Assembly (NCBI GenBank): GCA_903899885.1
Contig: CAIULK010000092.1
Coordinates: 1-39,584, forward strand
Direction of reading: 5' to 3'
From: an uncultured Rhodospirillaceae bacterium
GTDB lineage: Bacteria; Pseudomonadota; Alphaproteobacteria; Rhodospirillales; Magnetospirillaceae
DNA: 39,584 nucleotides
The position numbers were made by a program, and so were the translations under genes. Below, one piece after another: positions 28,445 through 33,926 of the stretch (its first letter is position 1; each line of letters opens with the position of its first letter). The notes beneath the pieces were generated by a model. It did not search any database and was not told the origin of the DNA. It saw only the letters and a list, made by a program, of their open reading frames with translations.

Positions 28445-29419
28445 ATGAGCATGAACCCCCGCCCCGCCCCGCGCCTGTTGTCGGTCGTCATCCCGTTTTA
28501 CAACGAGGAGGGCGGCGTCGATGCGTTGTTCAAGCGTCTGGTTCCGGTCCTCGACGGTTTGGGTGTGCCGTGGGAGGCGGTTTGCGTCAACGATGGCAGC
28601 AAGGACCGCACGCTCGACGAACTGATCGCGCAAACCCAAGCCGACCCGCGGATCAAGGCGGTCGATCTGTCGCGCAATTTCGGCAAGGAGCGCGCCTTGT
28701 CGGCCGGTCTGGCCCATGCGGTGGGCGAGGTGGTGGTGCCGATGGACGCCGATCTTCAGCATCCCCCCGAAGCCATCGCGGCGATGATCGAGAAATGGCG
28801 GCAAGGTTGGGAAGTGGTTTACGCCGTGCGCGACGCCCGCACCGGGCAGGGGTTCGGGGAAAAGCTGTTCGCCAAGGCGTTCTATTGGTTTTTCGATCAC
28901 CTGTCCGAGGTGCCGCTGCCGCGCGAGGTCGGCGATTTCCGCCTGATGGACCGCAGGGTGGTCGATGCGATCAACCGCATGCCGGAACGCTCGCGCTTCA
29001 TGAAGGGAATCTTCGCCTGGGTCGGCTTTCGCCAGACCGGCATCGTCTATGTGCAAGAAGCCCGCACCGCCGGGACCACCAAGTTCAACTTCCTGCGGCT
29101 GCTGCGCTTCGCGATCGACGGTTTGACCTCGTTCTCGAATTTCCCCCTGCGGGTGTGGAGCGTGATCGGCGGCACGGTGGCCGGGTCGGCCTTCGTCTAT
29201 ATCGTCGTGCGGATCATCCGCACCCTGATTTGGGGCATCGACGTGCCGGGTTACGAATCGACCCTGGTCTCGGTGCTGTTCCTGGGCGGCGTGCAATTGC
29301 TGACCCTGGGCATTCTGGGCGACTATCTCGGCCGCGTCTTCGACGAGGTGAAGGGCCGCCCGCTTTATATCGTCCGCGAGGTGTATTCCCGGGATAAACC
29401 GCCGCCGCCCCCCGCTTAA
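28445..29419 (+). CDS. Glycosyltransferase family 2, GtrB/ArnC-like
   Basis: 324 aa. The N-terminal GT-A domain has V-V-I-P-F-Y-N-E-E, V-N-D-G-S-K-D, and D-L-S-R-N-F-G-K-E then M-D-A-D-L-Q-H-P-P. Two C-terminal membrane segments follow (A-F-V-Y-I-V-V-R-I-I-R-T-L and L-F-L-G-G-V-Q-L-L-T-L-G-I-L-G). This is the bactoprenol-linked glucosyltransferase/ArnC architecture; it puts a sugar on undecaprenyl phosphate for glycan decoration. It lies 40 nt after moaA and is convergent with the accessory island (15 nt between stops). Confidence 0.88.
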   Translation: MSMNPRPAPRLLSVVIPFYNEEGGVDALFKRLVPVLDGLGVPWEAVCVNDGSKDRTLDELIAQTQADPRIKAVDLSRNFGKERALSAGLAHAVGEVVVPMDADLQHPPEAIAAMIEKWRQGWEVVYAVRDARTGQGFGEKLFAKAFYWFFDHLSEVPLPREVGDFRLMDRRVVDAINRMPERSRFMKGIFAWVGFRQTGIVYVQEARTAGTTKFNFLRLLRFAIDGLTSFSNFPLRVWSVIGGTVAGSAFVYIVVRIIRTLIWGIDVPGYESTLVSVLFLGGVQLLTLGILGDYLGRVFDEVKGRPLYIVREVYSRDKPPPPPA

Positions 29420-29434: not shown

Positions 29435-30312
29435 CTACTCGGAACACGCGTGATGAACATAGGGGCTTTTGTGGTCGCGCAGTCGTAGTTCATAGGGCGT
29501 AACCGGGTCGCGCCATGACCCTTCGCAGAGTTCGATCCAGGCCTTGTCTCGGCCCAGCCAGTAGATCGGCTGGTAGGGCGCTCCGAAGCGTTTGACGGCC
29601 TCGTAGGCAAAGGCGAACGGCAATATCGGCGGCAGCGGGCCGATCAGGGCGATTTGGCGCGACAATCCGGTTTGCTCGGAAAAGGAGACGCGGTAATGCG
29701 CGGGCGGCGCGGTGAACACCACGTCGTCGTCCCGACCGGGGCCGCCGTCGGTCCAGATCCCGCCGCGCCGCGCGGTTTCAGCCTTAAGCGCGTCACGGGT
29801 TTCGTGCAGCCGTAAACCGTCGAAATCGGTGGCGTCGGTGACTTCCTCGCCGAGAAAGGGGGGCGGTGGCGGCGTGCTGCCGGGCGAGCATTCGGCCACG
29901 TCAATCCAGACGCCCCGTCCTTTGGCGTGAAAAACCATATGGCAGGCCTGGGTGCCGTCCGGGATCGGGGCGACCACCCTGTGCAGCCATTCCTCTGTTT
30001 TGATATCGATGTAGTCACACTCAAGGAAGGCCGGTTTATCGGCCTTCTCCATCCGCCATGTGATGTCCTCGATCGTAGGTCCGGGGCCACTGACAGGCTC
30101 CTCCCATTCCTTTCCATCGCGGGTCAGTCCGTGGTCGAGGGTGGTAAGAGTCGCACCCCCGGCCCAGAGGTTGGCCCAACGAAATCGATAGTGGTTCTCG
30201 CCCACAGTCCAGATCGGGGGGCAAAACGCCCCCCCCTCGGGAGATCGGCCGCGAACGCCTCGGTGATCCCGGCACAGATCAACAACCCAACGATCAACCC
30301 GATGCGAACCAT
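29435..30312 (-). CDS. Secreted immunity-like protein, signal peptide out of frame at a G8 tract
   Basis: A clear signal peptide begins at ATG 30312 (M-V-R-I-G-L-I-V-G-L-L-I-C-A-G then A-F-A-A-D) with GGAAGGA upstream. After ~27 codons it runs into eight G residues (complement of 30229–30236) and leaves frame. The body continues in another frame to 29435: C-P-P-I-W, L-E-C-D-Y, A-P-I-P-D-G-T-Q-A-C-H, then P-P-A-H-Y-R-V. Nine or six G would join them. The body shares spaced Cys motifs with the product of 31244–32116 and its C-terminal third with the ORF at 30477. It is either phase-variable, a frameshift mutation or a sequencing error; the locus argues for a periplasmic inhibitor. Confidence 0.6.
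30229..30236 (-). repeat. G8 homopolymer between signal peptide and mature protein
   Basis: Eight consecutive C on the plus strand (G on the coding strand) lie exactly where the open frame shifts. Homopolymers of this length are typical slipped-strand sites. Confidence 0.6.
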
Positions 30313-30476
30313 GGCCTAGTCCTTCCGATATGCGCCAATGCAAATATCACCGCTGATGAATAGAGAAAGAGTTAAATTAATATAAATAGGTTTATGAATT
30401 ACGCTGTCGCTCTGGCTAAGTTCATCTTTGTGGTTGTCGATGAGGTCGTCCAACAAAAAGGCCGACGGATCAGACG
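30313..30476. promoter_or_regulatory. AT-rich leader of the second immunity-like gene
   Basis: 164 bp containing an AT-rich stretch (ATTAATATAAATAG near 30378–30392) that stands out in this GC-rich window. It holds no gene. It probably contains the promoter for the gene starting at 30312, independent of the upstream effector transcript. Confidence 0.4.
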
Positions 30477-31085
30477 CTAATCCTTACAAGGGAAATGGGC
30501 GCCCCGGTTGATGACCTCGATCAAGCGCATTTCATACGGGGTGATTGGAGGCCGTCGTCTTCCTCCGCACAATTCGACCTGGGTGGTGTCGGTCCCCTCC
30601 CATGATACAGGGCAACATGGCGTCGGTGCGCCGAGGCGCAGGACATATTTATATAAAAAATCACCGTCAAAAGCGGGCGGCGAGGGGCCGAGCGCGGTAA
30701 TTCGGACCGACAATCCGGTCTGTGGGGAAAACAAAACGCGGTAATGGGCGGGCGGGTCGGTGAAGGTATCCTTATCGACCTTGAGGGCGAGATAGCCGTT
30801 GTCGCCCTCGGTGGCGGCGATCCGCTTCAACTTATCCCCGATATTCTCGCCTACGGTTGAGGGCACGACGTGGCCTTGGGGCGGCGCCGATTTGCCGCTA
30901 TCGCCCTCCGGGGCATCGTTTTGCGCGATCTGCTCCGGCGGGACTGTGGATTCGGTTGCCGGTGCCACCCCCTTGTTGCCGCCCGAGGGATTTTGCGCCG
31001 CCGCCGCGCCGCCGTTCATCGGGTCGGTGATGTCCTTGGGCGGGGCCTCGGAGTCGTCGTCATTATTACCGGGGCAGGTCGCCAT
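30477..31085 (-). CDS. Chimeric ORF: effector linker fused to immunity C-terminal domain
   Basis: 202 codons. Residues 1–107 repeat the linker of the 591-aa effector: D-D-S-E-A-P-P-K-D-I-T-D-P-M-N-G-G-A-A, then P-P-Q-G-H-V-V-P, then G-D-N-G-Y-L-A-L-K-V-D-K-D-T. Residues ~109–202 match the C-terminal domain of the immunity-like gene at 29435: P-P-A-H-Y-R-V-L-F-S-x-Q-T-G-L-S, then T-P-Y-E-M-R-L. The hydrolase domain and the immunity signal peptide are absent. There is no convincing Shine-Dalgarno. The likely origin is a deletion joining an old effector–immunity pair, which makes expression doubtful. Confidence 0.6.
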   Translation of the reverse strand: MATCPGNNDDDSEAPPKDITDPMNGGAAAAQNPSGGNKGVAPATESTVPPEQIAQNDAPEGDSGKSAPPQGHVVPSTVGENIGDKLKRIAATEGDNGYLALKVDKDTFTDPPAHYRVLFSPQTGLSVRITALGPSPPAFDGDFLYKYVLRLGAPTPCCPVSWEGTDTTQVELCGGRRRPPITPYEMRLIEVINRGAHFPCKD

Positions 31086-31243: not shown

Positions 31244-32116
31244 TTATTTCAACGCGCTGGCCGTGGTGTCCGTGAGAAGGATGATTTGGGAAAAGCCGTT
31301 GCTAGGGTCCGGGTACGTCACGTTGAGCCGGACGCCGTCCTCGCCGTTCCAGATCCAGCTTGGTGTTTCGGATTTGAAGGAGTACCTGTTGCGAAACCAG
31401 AACCGCCGAGTCATCGCGTCGAACGCGGTTTTATCCCCGAGCTTCGCTGGTTCAACGATGATCCGCGCGGTTCGTTCGGGGTCGCTCGCGAACTCAAGAT
31501 GGACCTTCCGCTTATCGGCCAACATGATAACCAGCGCACCCGCTTCGCTCGAAATCGCCACGCCGTTCACCGCCGAAATTGCCGCATCGACTTGGTCCCG
31601 TGTCCAGCGCAACCGAAAGCCGCCGATTTCCGTGTCCAGACCCAAGGTTTCCGCAGGATAGAGTTTAACCCCGTCGTGTGCTGGATCACCGTTTGGGACG
31701 AAGCGGCACCAAGTTCGGACGGGGTCATGATAGGGCAGCTTGCGCCCGGGTGTCGGCCTCTGGTTATCCGCGCAGCAATAGTGATAAATATTAACGCAGT
31801 CCTTGAGCCCATGCGGAACGGGAATCATCAAACGGCGCCCGCTGGCATAGATGCAGCCGATGTCGGCCCGATACGTCCCTAGGCCATATTCATCGCGCCA
31901 CAGGTCATCCTCCTGACTTACGTCCGTCGAGAGCCCAACCTGACCGTCGATCCATGGGGTGGTCATCGCGATTACGTCCTTCGGATCGCTAGGCCATGTC
32001 GCCGGGCATTCAGCGGTTGGGGCGTTGGAGGGAGGCAAAAACGCGGGATCATCGGCAGCAAGTGCCGATGATCCAAAGGCTATGGCGAAAGAAAAGGCAA
32101 GGATCATATCTTTCAT
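31244..32116 (-). CDS. Secreted protein, candidate periplasmic immunity for the upstream effector
   Basis: 290 aa with a Sec signal peptide (M-K-D-M-I-L-A-F-S-F-A-I-A-F-G then A-L-A-A-D). The mature chain has spaced motifs shared with the gene at 29435: C-P-A-T-W near 38, G-C-I-Y, V-P-H-G-L-K-D-C, then G-G-F-R-L-R-W-T-R-D. It begins 34 nt after the effector stop on the same strand. Effectors that cut peptidoglycan are normally paired with exported inhibitors, so position and export signal fit immunity. No named family is recognised; the function is inferred. Confidence 0.7.
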   Translation of the reverse strand: MKDMILAFSFAIAFGSSALAADDPAFLPPSNAPTAECPATWPSDPKDVIAMTTPWIDGQVGLSTDVSQEDDLWRDEYGLGTYRADIGCIYASGRRLMIPVPHGLKDCVNIYHYCCADNQRPTPGRKLPYHDPVRTWCRFVPNGDPAHDGVKLYPAETLGLDTEIGGFRLRWTRDQVDAAISAVNGVAISSEAGALVIMLADKRKVHLEFASDPERTARIIVEPAKLGDKTAFDAMTRRFWFRNRYSFKSETPSWIWNGEDGVRLNVTYPDPSNGFSQIILLTDTTASALK

Positions 32117-32150: not shown

Positions 32151-33926
32151 TTACCGGATAACAGAGAATTGGCCGGCTGTGTAGCCATGACCGCTGGCCG
32201 ACGGATCGAATGGGATAAAGCGCCCCCCGGCGGGTTTGCCATCGTATTGATCAAACACCCGGATGCCGGGTTGACCTGTATCCGGGTTATTTGCATACCC
32301 CAAGAATATCGCCGCATGATTCTGGCCGGACACCCCCTTGTATTGGCCGTCGGTAAAACTGGCGATCGCCGTGCCGGGTTGCAGCGGCGGATCATTCGGC
32401 CCTTTGATGCCGTCGCCGGGTTTCCAAGTTTTTGTCGATCCTAGCTCGGGAATGAAATACTTAACGAGCGGTGCGCACTGTGTCCCGTTACCGGTGTCTT
32501 TATCAATTTTTTGGGCGAGATAGCCATTGTCGCCCTTGGCGGCGGCGATTTTTGCCAGTTCCTCCTCGGTCTTCGGGACAATGTGGCCTTGCGGCGGTGT
32601 ATTGTTGGCGGCGCCATTATTTTGAGTGTTCTGCCCGCCGGACAAAGCGTCGTTGGATGCCGCGTCACTCGAAGAGGCATTGACGGCGGTGGTGTCGAGA
32701 TTGGCTGTGGTGGACCCCACCCCGTTCGCCGAGGGACTTTCCGCCGATGCCGCGCCGCCGTTCATCGGGTCGGTGATGTCCTTGGGCGGGGGTTGGTCCT
32801 GCGTGTCCTTCCCGGGATTGGTGGTCTCGGGCGGGGCCTCGGAGTCGTCTTCATTATCATCGGTGGTGTCGGCACAGTCGATGGAGGTGTTGTCCAAGGA
32901 ATCCGGCGACGTATCGAGAGGCTCGCCCCGCGCATCCGCCACGGGTTCCTCGCCCCGCGCGTTGCGCAGCAACACGGCGCGGATGTTGTCGCGAATCCCG
33001 GCTGGGGCGCGGTCCCAGGCGGCGCGGACGGCGGGATCCAGCGCGCACAGCTGGTGTTCGTCGATCGGGCGGCGGTCGTCGAGCGCGGCGCGCAACAGAG
33101 TGTCGCGGATGTGCCGGGCGGCGTCGGAGCGGGCGGCGAAGGCGGCGGCGGTTTTGGCGGCACGGCGGTGATCGAGGATGGTGCGGGCCTCGCCCTCGTC
33201 CAACGGCGGGGGCGTGAGGCCGTGTTGCACCGCGGCCCAATGCAAGCGTGCGGCTTCGGCGGCGAGGCGGGTTTTCAGCCGGTGTTCGGCGGCGGGGTGC
33301 CCGGTGCTTGCGATCAAGGCGCGGTGGCGGTTGAAGAAGGCGTTGGCCGCCAGCGGGTCTTGGTCAAGCAAACGGTTGAGGACCGTGGTGGCGATAAGGT
33401 GGCGGAAACGGGCGAGGCGGGCTTGCACCGCCGTATCCGGTTGCGTGGTGCGCTGGCCGTGGCCACGGATTTCCGCCTCGCCGGCTTTTTCCAGATCCAG
33501 GAAGGCGGCGGGGTCACTGGCGTGATCGGCGGCATCGAGGATCAGCAGCCGCAACAGCCGGTCGCTGCCCTGGGTCCACCAGCGGGCGCGCTGGGTTTCG
33601 GCATGGCGGGTCAGGCGGCGGGATTCGAGATCGCGGTAGGCGGCGGATTGGCGGTCGAATTGGGCGCGCGCCGCGCCCGGCGGCATCGCATCGCGAAGTT
33701 CGCATCGCAGGCGCTCGATGTCGCCCAGCACCGAGGGCAAGGCGGCCAGGGCCTCGCCGACCGGGCGGCGGTGTTGTTGCAGACGAATCGCCCGCAGGCG
33801 GGTGTGGAAATCGCGACCCAGGGCCAAGGCAGCCTCGGTGCGGGTGTTCAGGCTGCGCACGCGGGCCGGTTCGGGGGGCTCGGGCGGCGGGGCGGCGAAA
33901 TAATCGGAAAGGGTGATGGTTCCCAT
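32151..33926 (-). CDS. Putative effector: phage-virion-like helical region plus BPSL0067/NlpC-P60-like domain
   Basis: 591 aa. Residues 1–~345 are helical and charged, with phrases such as L-L-D-Q-D-P-L-A-A-N-A-F-F-N-R-H that resemble phage internal-virion or tail proteins. Residues ~350–479 are a low-complexity Asn/Ser/Pro linker. Residues 480–591 match the BPSL0067 family: Q-C-A-P-L-V-K with Cys484, W-K-P-G-D, P-G-T-A-I-A-S-F, N-H-A-A-I-F-L-G with His537, and V-F-D-Q-Y-D-G. BPSL0067 proteins have, to my knowledge, an NlpC/P60-like fold, so a peptidoglycan amidase/peptidase toxin is likely. There is no signal peptide, so delivery would need a secretion system or lysis; none is in the window. 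Confidence 0.7.
   Translation of the reverse strand: MGTITLSDYFAAPPPEPPEPARVRSLNTRTEAALALGRDFHTRLRAIRLQQHRRPVGEALAALPSVLGDIERLRCELRDAMPPGAARAQFDRQSAAYRDLESRRLTRHAETQRARWWTQGSDRLLRLLILDAADHASDPAAFLDLEKAGEAEIRGHGQRTTQPDTAVQARLARFRHLIATTVLNRLLDQDPLAANAFFNRHRALIASTGHPAAEHRLKTRLAAEAARLHWAAVQHGLTPPPLDEGEARTILDHRRAAKTAAAFAARSDAARHIRDTLLRAALDDRRPIDEHQLCALDPAVRAAWDRAPAGIRDNIRAVLLRNARGEEPVADARGEPLDTSPDSLDNTSIDCADTTDDNEDDSEAPPETTNPGKDTQDQPPPKDITDPMNGGAASAESPSANGVGSTTANLDTTAVNASSSDAASNDALSGGQNTQNNGAANNTPPQGHIVPKTEEELAKIAAAKGDNGYLAQKIDKDTGNGTQCAPLVKYFIPELGSTKTWKPGDGIKGPNDPPLQPGTAIASFTDGQYKGVSGQNHAAIFLGYANNPDTGQPGIRVFDQYDGKPAGGRFIPFDPSASGHGYTAGQFSVIR

Follow-up and report, generated by a model that had tools for sequence, protein, structure and literature searches.

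A probable homopolymer-length error at a G8 tract separates leader and body of a putative exported immunity gene beside a BPSL0067-family amidase gene

Phase-variable contingency genes with poly-G tracts are well known from Neisseria and Campylobacter. The immunity-like gene described here (30312-29435, read on the minus strand of the window, i.e. of the whole stretch of 39,584 nucleotides that was analyzed) resembles these genes in that a G tract lies within the coding region and the frames on either side are intact, but it differs from them in that the tract is not conserved and in that the window holds no excess of long tracts. The other system that lends itself to comparison is the BPSL0067-family amidase (NF033857), in whose relatives an exported partner gene follows directly downstream of the amidase gene, and the amidase gene of the window scores above the NCBIfam cut-off for this family. 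We take the BPSL0067 family to be Tae2, and the pair to correspond to type VI effectors of the Tae2/Tai2 kind. A passage of PMC10469887 describes Tae2 as a peptidoglycan amidase that is paired with Tai2, the tae2 gene of B. thailandensis is BTH_I0068 according to a section of PMC8926400, and BPSL0067 itself is given as a protein of unknown function in an excerpt of PMC4855414.

The locus departs from the Tae2/Tai2 type VI pairs in one respect. Searches for the type VI sheath gene (PF05943) gave no match in the genome from which the window derives, a draft that is rated 100% complete, and none in the other four carriers of the family (G004, G010, G023 and G073), and the gene is present in 9 of the 55 family genomes. 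BPSL0067-type pairs hence occur in five Magnetospirillum-like genomes in which a type VI sheath was not detected, and this points to another route of delivery or another use. For the immunity-like proteins, the STY0301 family (NF042415) was considered, as one relative (L003) reaches 22.0 bits, which is exactly the cut-off (22.0), and another (L005) 20.3 bits. The two proteins of the window, P0001 and the product of the second immunity-like gene, match no Pfam or NCBIfam family at E<=0.5, and a membership in STY0301 was rejected for this reason. STY0301 is labelled safC, outer membrane usher, in a passage of PMC3680342 that does not mention immunity.

The sequence-only reading of this locus had claimed that a signal peptide and the homologous body of an exported protein lie in different frames and that the frame changes at a run of eight Gs. 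The leader ORF, the body frame and the alignment of related proteins (A1) agree with this description, and the frame arithmetic is also correct, as one more G would restore the full exported frame. The tract, which was read directly from the sequence, and all other features are listed in Table 1. The frame that begins with the ATG encodes MVRIGLIVGLLICAGITEAFAADLP... and is out of frame with the body after the tract, so that a signal-peptide-like leader is present in the gene, but separated from its body in the sequence as assembled. Signal peptides were generally assigned from a hydrophobic stretch and by eye. The body frame is already open upstream of the tract (TTG at 30343), runs to 29435, and encodes ...AFCPPIWTVGENHYRFRWANLWAGG.... 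As the site of the frame change was placed by homology, the G8 tract is the putative position, with a doubt of a few bases. The C6 run that directly follows the cysteine codon of CPPIW was considered as another break site, but it is less likely, because the CPPIW cysteine that is shared by the relatives is encoded before this run.

Table 1. Features of the window and genes split at G tracts elsewhere in the same assembly. Positions without prefix refer to the window.
Feature	Position	Strand	Details
Leader-frame ORF	30124..30312	-	62 aa; ATG at 30312, stop at 30124; signal-peptide-like start
G8 tract, putative site of frame change	30229..30236	-	C8 on the plus strand
Body frame of the immunity-like protein (P0001)	29435..30244	-	Without stops to its end; first residues CPPIW
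GC stem of 7 bp with 5-nt loop	30216..30234	-	30216-30222 pairs with 30228-30234; tract forms one arm
Remnant	30477..31085	-	Amidase-gene linker continuing into the C-terminal third (~100 residues) of an immunity-like relative
Second immunity-like gene	31244..32116	-	Leader and body in one frame
Amidase effector gene	32151..33926	-	591 aa; BPSL0067-family domain at the C-terminus, from residue 481 to 564 (NF033857, E 1.2e-15, 57.8 bits, cut-off 27)
nifV, split at G9	L111:6055-7255 (contig C191)		Profile halves meet: TIGR02660 2-210, then 211-364
Gene for phage minor tail protein L, split at G8	L119:1457-2225 (contig C242)		TIGR01600 1-82, then 88-221
K+ channel gene, probably split at G8	L117:3541-4615 (contig C182)		Left half only: Ion_trans to 197 of 241
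Best cckA match, split at G6	L117:18057-19998 (contig C182)	-	Two NF046020 pieces
Membrane protein L027, candidate fourth gene cut at a G/C run of at least 8			Left half just below PF10131 cut-off; right half without match

Is the body frame a real gene? Homology, i.e. alignment A1 and the profile match derived from it, suggests that it is the true coding frame. A1 consists of seven rows of proteins from genomes of the same family, with the body of the window among them, and when its profile was run against the own genome, it matched 29438-30229 over the profile positions 21-283 of 283. The stretches that are common in A1, namely CPxxW, WANxWA, a GLRL stretch, RGGxW and TGLSR-like stretches, are found in the body. 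Of 5000 Markov shuffles, 6 produced an equally long frame without stops, and together with the homology this rules out that the body is a chance open frame. Composition alone is a weak support, as the codon model rated 29550-30143 as coding and 30144-30729, including the tract, as non-coding. No second lesion was seen in the body, because it is stop-free and keeps the shared positions of the family. When the A1 profile was compared with solved structures, only CD44 chains were returned (E 0.19-0.2), and these were taken as chance matches.

In the explanation that we favor, the locus would be an array of toxin-immunity cassettes, in which an amidase gene, an intact immunity-like gene, a remnant and the immunity-like gene 30312-29435 follow each other. 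The product of the latter gene would be exported via its signal peptide and then bind an amidase in the periplasm. Position and leader together indicate that the gene probably encodes an exported immunity-like protein, for which neutralization of an amidase is predicted. The term “immunity-like” had already been chosen in the earlier reading, and it is supported by the neighboring toxin-type gene, because a BPSL0067-family amidase gene lies upstream here as well as in six other genomes. The adjacency test covered eight of the nine carrier genomes (all except G169), and an amidase match was found just upstream of the immunity match and on the same strand in seven of these eight, own genome included; in the eighth, G253, no amidase match lies upstream of the immunity match. 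On contig C58 of G004, an amidase match and an immunity match are on opposite strands.

The remnant lacks both the amidase domain and the N-terminus of the immunity protein. It shares 94% DNA identity over 63 nt with the linker of the amidase gene (32729-32791) and 47% protein identity over 99 aa with the body, and it is a trace of a cassette deletion, which means that the neighborhood is in turnover. The N-terminal ~290 residues of the amidase gene product are weakly similar to large phage proteins that are labelled endolysin (phrog_1044, E 0.00041), and the amidase genes of the relatives have N-termini that are unlike this one. A second pair exists in the own genome on contig C262 (L260:1039-2447), where a short amidase gene of 188 aa is followed by an exported immunity-like gene whose leader and body are in frame. 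A phage or plasmid origin was also considered. It was rejected, as a tblastn search of 50,697 phage records and 72,556 plasmid records with P0001 gave no match, and the flanks of the tract had no exact match in viral_contigs. For the gene at 28445-29419, the best matches come from MAGs of Proteobacteria and Rhodospirillaceae (83, 80 and 78% identity), followed by Phaeospirillum and Magnetospirillum, and the 80 loci around its relatives, several of which are short, contained neither an amidase gene nor an immunity-like one.

The A1 profile found matches in 5 of the 55 genomes of the family at E<=1e-4 and, when the search was extended to the 317 genomes of the order, in 9 of them at E<=1e-6. A total of 15 relatives was examined, i.e. 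13 proteins from profile searches, the second immunity-like gene of the window, and L260, which was found via the amidase search and whose gene was picked by eye from an ORF list. This set includes the distant members L018, L019 and L243 (E-values of 2.9e-8, 4.3e-8 and 1.5e-7 in the profile searches), and a 48-aa fragment (L020), a weak match (L006, E 0.007) and the remnant were kept outside of it. By the hydrophobic-stretch test, the hydrophobic leader of each of the 15 continues into the CPxxW motif in a single open frame. Within the stretch from leader to motif, the longest G/C run ranges from 3 to 6 in these relatives, with 6 reached once (L260), and a run of more than 6 occurs in none of the 15, which means that the tract has not been kept.

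This result bears directly on the idea that the gene is phase-variable. According to this idea, the length of the G8 tract would change by slipped-strand mispairing, and the immunity protein would be exported at some tract lengths and not at others. The tract lies within coding sequence and close to the start, the frames on both sides are intact, and a hairpin is found at the tract, all of which would suit such a switch, and the second immunity-like gene could make a loss tolerable. Nevertheless, we regard phase variation as quite improbable. Besides the lack of conservation in the 15 relatives, the G/C runs of the window stay below the expectation of a first-order Markov model: the G8 is the only run of at least 8, as compared to about 5 expected, and runs of at least 6 number 20 instead of 51. 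The possibility that the tract is more than a chance run was rejected, as this single run is fewer than the number expected. Moreover, most in-gene tracts of the assembly keep the frame, and the broken ones are found in unrelated genes, nifV among them. A switch of this kind, if real, would make the locus an unusual example of phase-variable self-protection. Its suggested consequence, that slippage at G8 makes clonal cells differ in whether they survive the peptidoglycan amidase of a sibling, with the intact neighbor covering the remaining amidase, must be considered very improbable. The earlier claim of an on/off switch thus finds no support, because none of the 15 relatives has the tract, because the window is poor in such runs, and because a switch that is specific for this gene does not account for the other, unrelated genes of the assembly that are also broken at G tracts.

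Full-length protein could in principle also be produced from the sequence as it stands, if the ribosome slipped back at G GGG GGG or if RNA polymerase slipped, so that some of the product would be exported. In the leader frame, the codons at the tract read CCG AGG GGG GGG CGT, and the tract thus forms a perfect heptamer of the type X XXY YYZ, which is the consensus of slippery heptamers. A GC hairpin is present as well, but the slippery run lies inside this hairpin and not upstream of it, and the fold is only modestly better than that of shuffled sequences. For 61 nt of RNA, the folding energy is -30.2 kcal/mol (z -1.77), and 11 of 200 shuffles were as good; for 41 nt of DNA, the value is -10.7 (z -2.28), with 5 of 200 shuffles as good, and a separate hairpin search at the tract returned arms of 6 nt. 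As the site is also absent from all 15 relatives, recoding is hardly to be expected here. The hairpin has another aspect, as sequencing chemistry and polymerases may both slip at a G8 tract within such a structure.

The question therefore arises whether the tract is correctly represented in the assembly, and frame breaks at G tracts were indeed found in unrelated conserved genes of the same draft (3,437,273 bases in 269 contigs, rated 2.95% contaminated). The 97 overlapping matches to G/C runs of at least 8 were merged to 79 tracts, and all of these were inspected: 35 fall inside a single coding frame, 18 at an edge of coding and non-coding sequence, 15 in non-coding sequence, 10 at a frame change on the same strand, and 1 at a strand change. 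The G8 of the window is counted among the 15 non-coding tracts, as assigned by the codon model. By eye, six of the ten same-strand frame changes are boundaries of adjacent genes and four cut a gene. One of these four is nifV, for which no match in the whole genome passes the cut-off of 462.9 bits, and the two pieces reach 300.8 and 207 bits. An unbroken paralogue of 531 aa on contig C197 reaches 322.5 bits and was taken for a 2-isopropylmalate synthase, and nifH is intact and over its cut-off. The phage minor tail protein gene is likewise covered by its profile on both sides of the tract. The K+ channel gene is probably cut at its G8 tract, with the right half being recognized by eye, and L027 is doubtful as a broken gene.

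A frame-change scan for breaks at any place within genes was carried out with a 438-kb sample of the own genome. It returned 162 boundaries with 7 candidates, and 163 and 8, respectively, when the model was retrained. Four of the candidates coincide with a run of 6 to 9 Gs, namely nifV, the K+ channel gene, the tail gene and the best match to cckA. In the latter case, residues 9-373 of one piece cover NF046020 positions 196-580 and the other piece covers 584-865, and a full-length second copy was not found at E<=1e-50 in the genome search, which returned the two pieces and one partial kinase of lower score. The same test was applied to 400 kb each from two single-contig genomes of the family as controls, and one candidate was found in each of them, neither of which is at a G/C run of at least 6. 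Of the coding tracts of at least 6 G/C, 0 of 166 are thus broken in the controls, as compared to 4 of 79 in the 438-kb sample (Fisher p 0.010), a comparison that is a support and not a proof, as it is based on four events and on a draft versus finished genomes of other species. The tract of the window is on neither side of this count, because its surroundings are called non-coding by the codon model.

The G8 frame break is thus most readily understood as a miscounted homopolymer in the draft assembly, and the location of the tract inside a GC hairpin would make it an error-prone spot. That an exported immunity gene has been broken by such an assembly error is the explanation that we consider likely, albeit with considerable reservation, and the true gene is then probably intact and always on. 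We rate a slip in sequencing or assembly as more probable than a genetic switch, because the same draft is broken at G runs in unrelated genes. If these breaks are errors, they are a minority, as 35 of the 39 in-gene tracts of at least 8 keep the frame. Three considerations speak against errors: slippage mutations in living cells would strike identical sites, natural loss occurs for both nifV and cckA, the latter being dispensable in some relatives, and the scan of the own sample also flagged four frame changes away from G/C runs of at least 6, at least one of which (L102) may be real. In any case, unless it is accompanied by reads, a frame break at such a tract says little in favor of a switch, as in this draft nifV and the best cckA match are broken as well.

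A real, one-off slippage mutation would yield the same sequence, and this is the alternative that deserves most attention, even if we regard it as unlikely. The immunity-like gene would then be an orphan under weak selection, and a recent mutation at the site most prone to change would have inactivated it after the adjacent intact effector had been lost, and only the remnant is found directly upstream. The remnant shows that cassettes are being deleted at this place, the amidase gene is already adjoined by the intact immunity-like gene, and the own genome has the second amidase-immunity pair on C262, all of which would agree with an orphaned gene. On the other hand, the body has no other lesion, and the decay of an orphan leaves the G-tract breaks in unrelated conserved genes unexplained.

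The other four candidates of the frame-change scan (L102, L103, L108 and L118) lie away from G/C runs of at least 6. In case of L103, two different families match on the two sides. L102 (L102:14828-16340, contig C152 of the own genome) is porin-like by eye and contains a frame change, with neither half matching in NCBIfam, and this gene may be genuinely broken.
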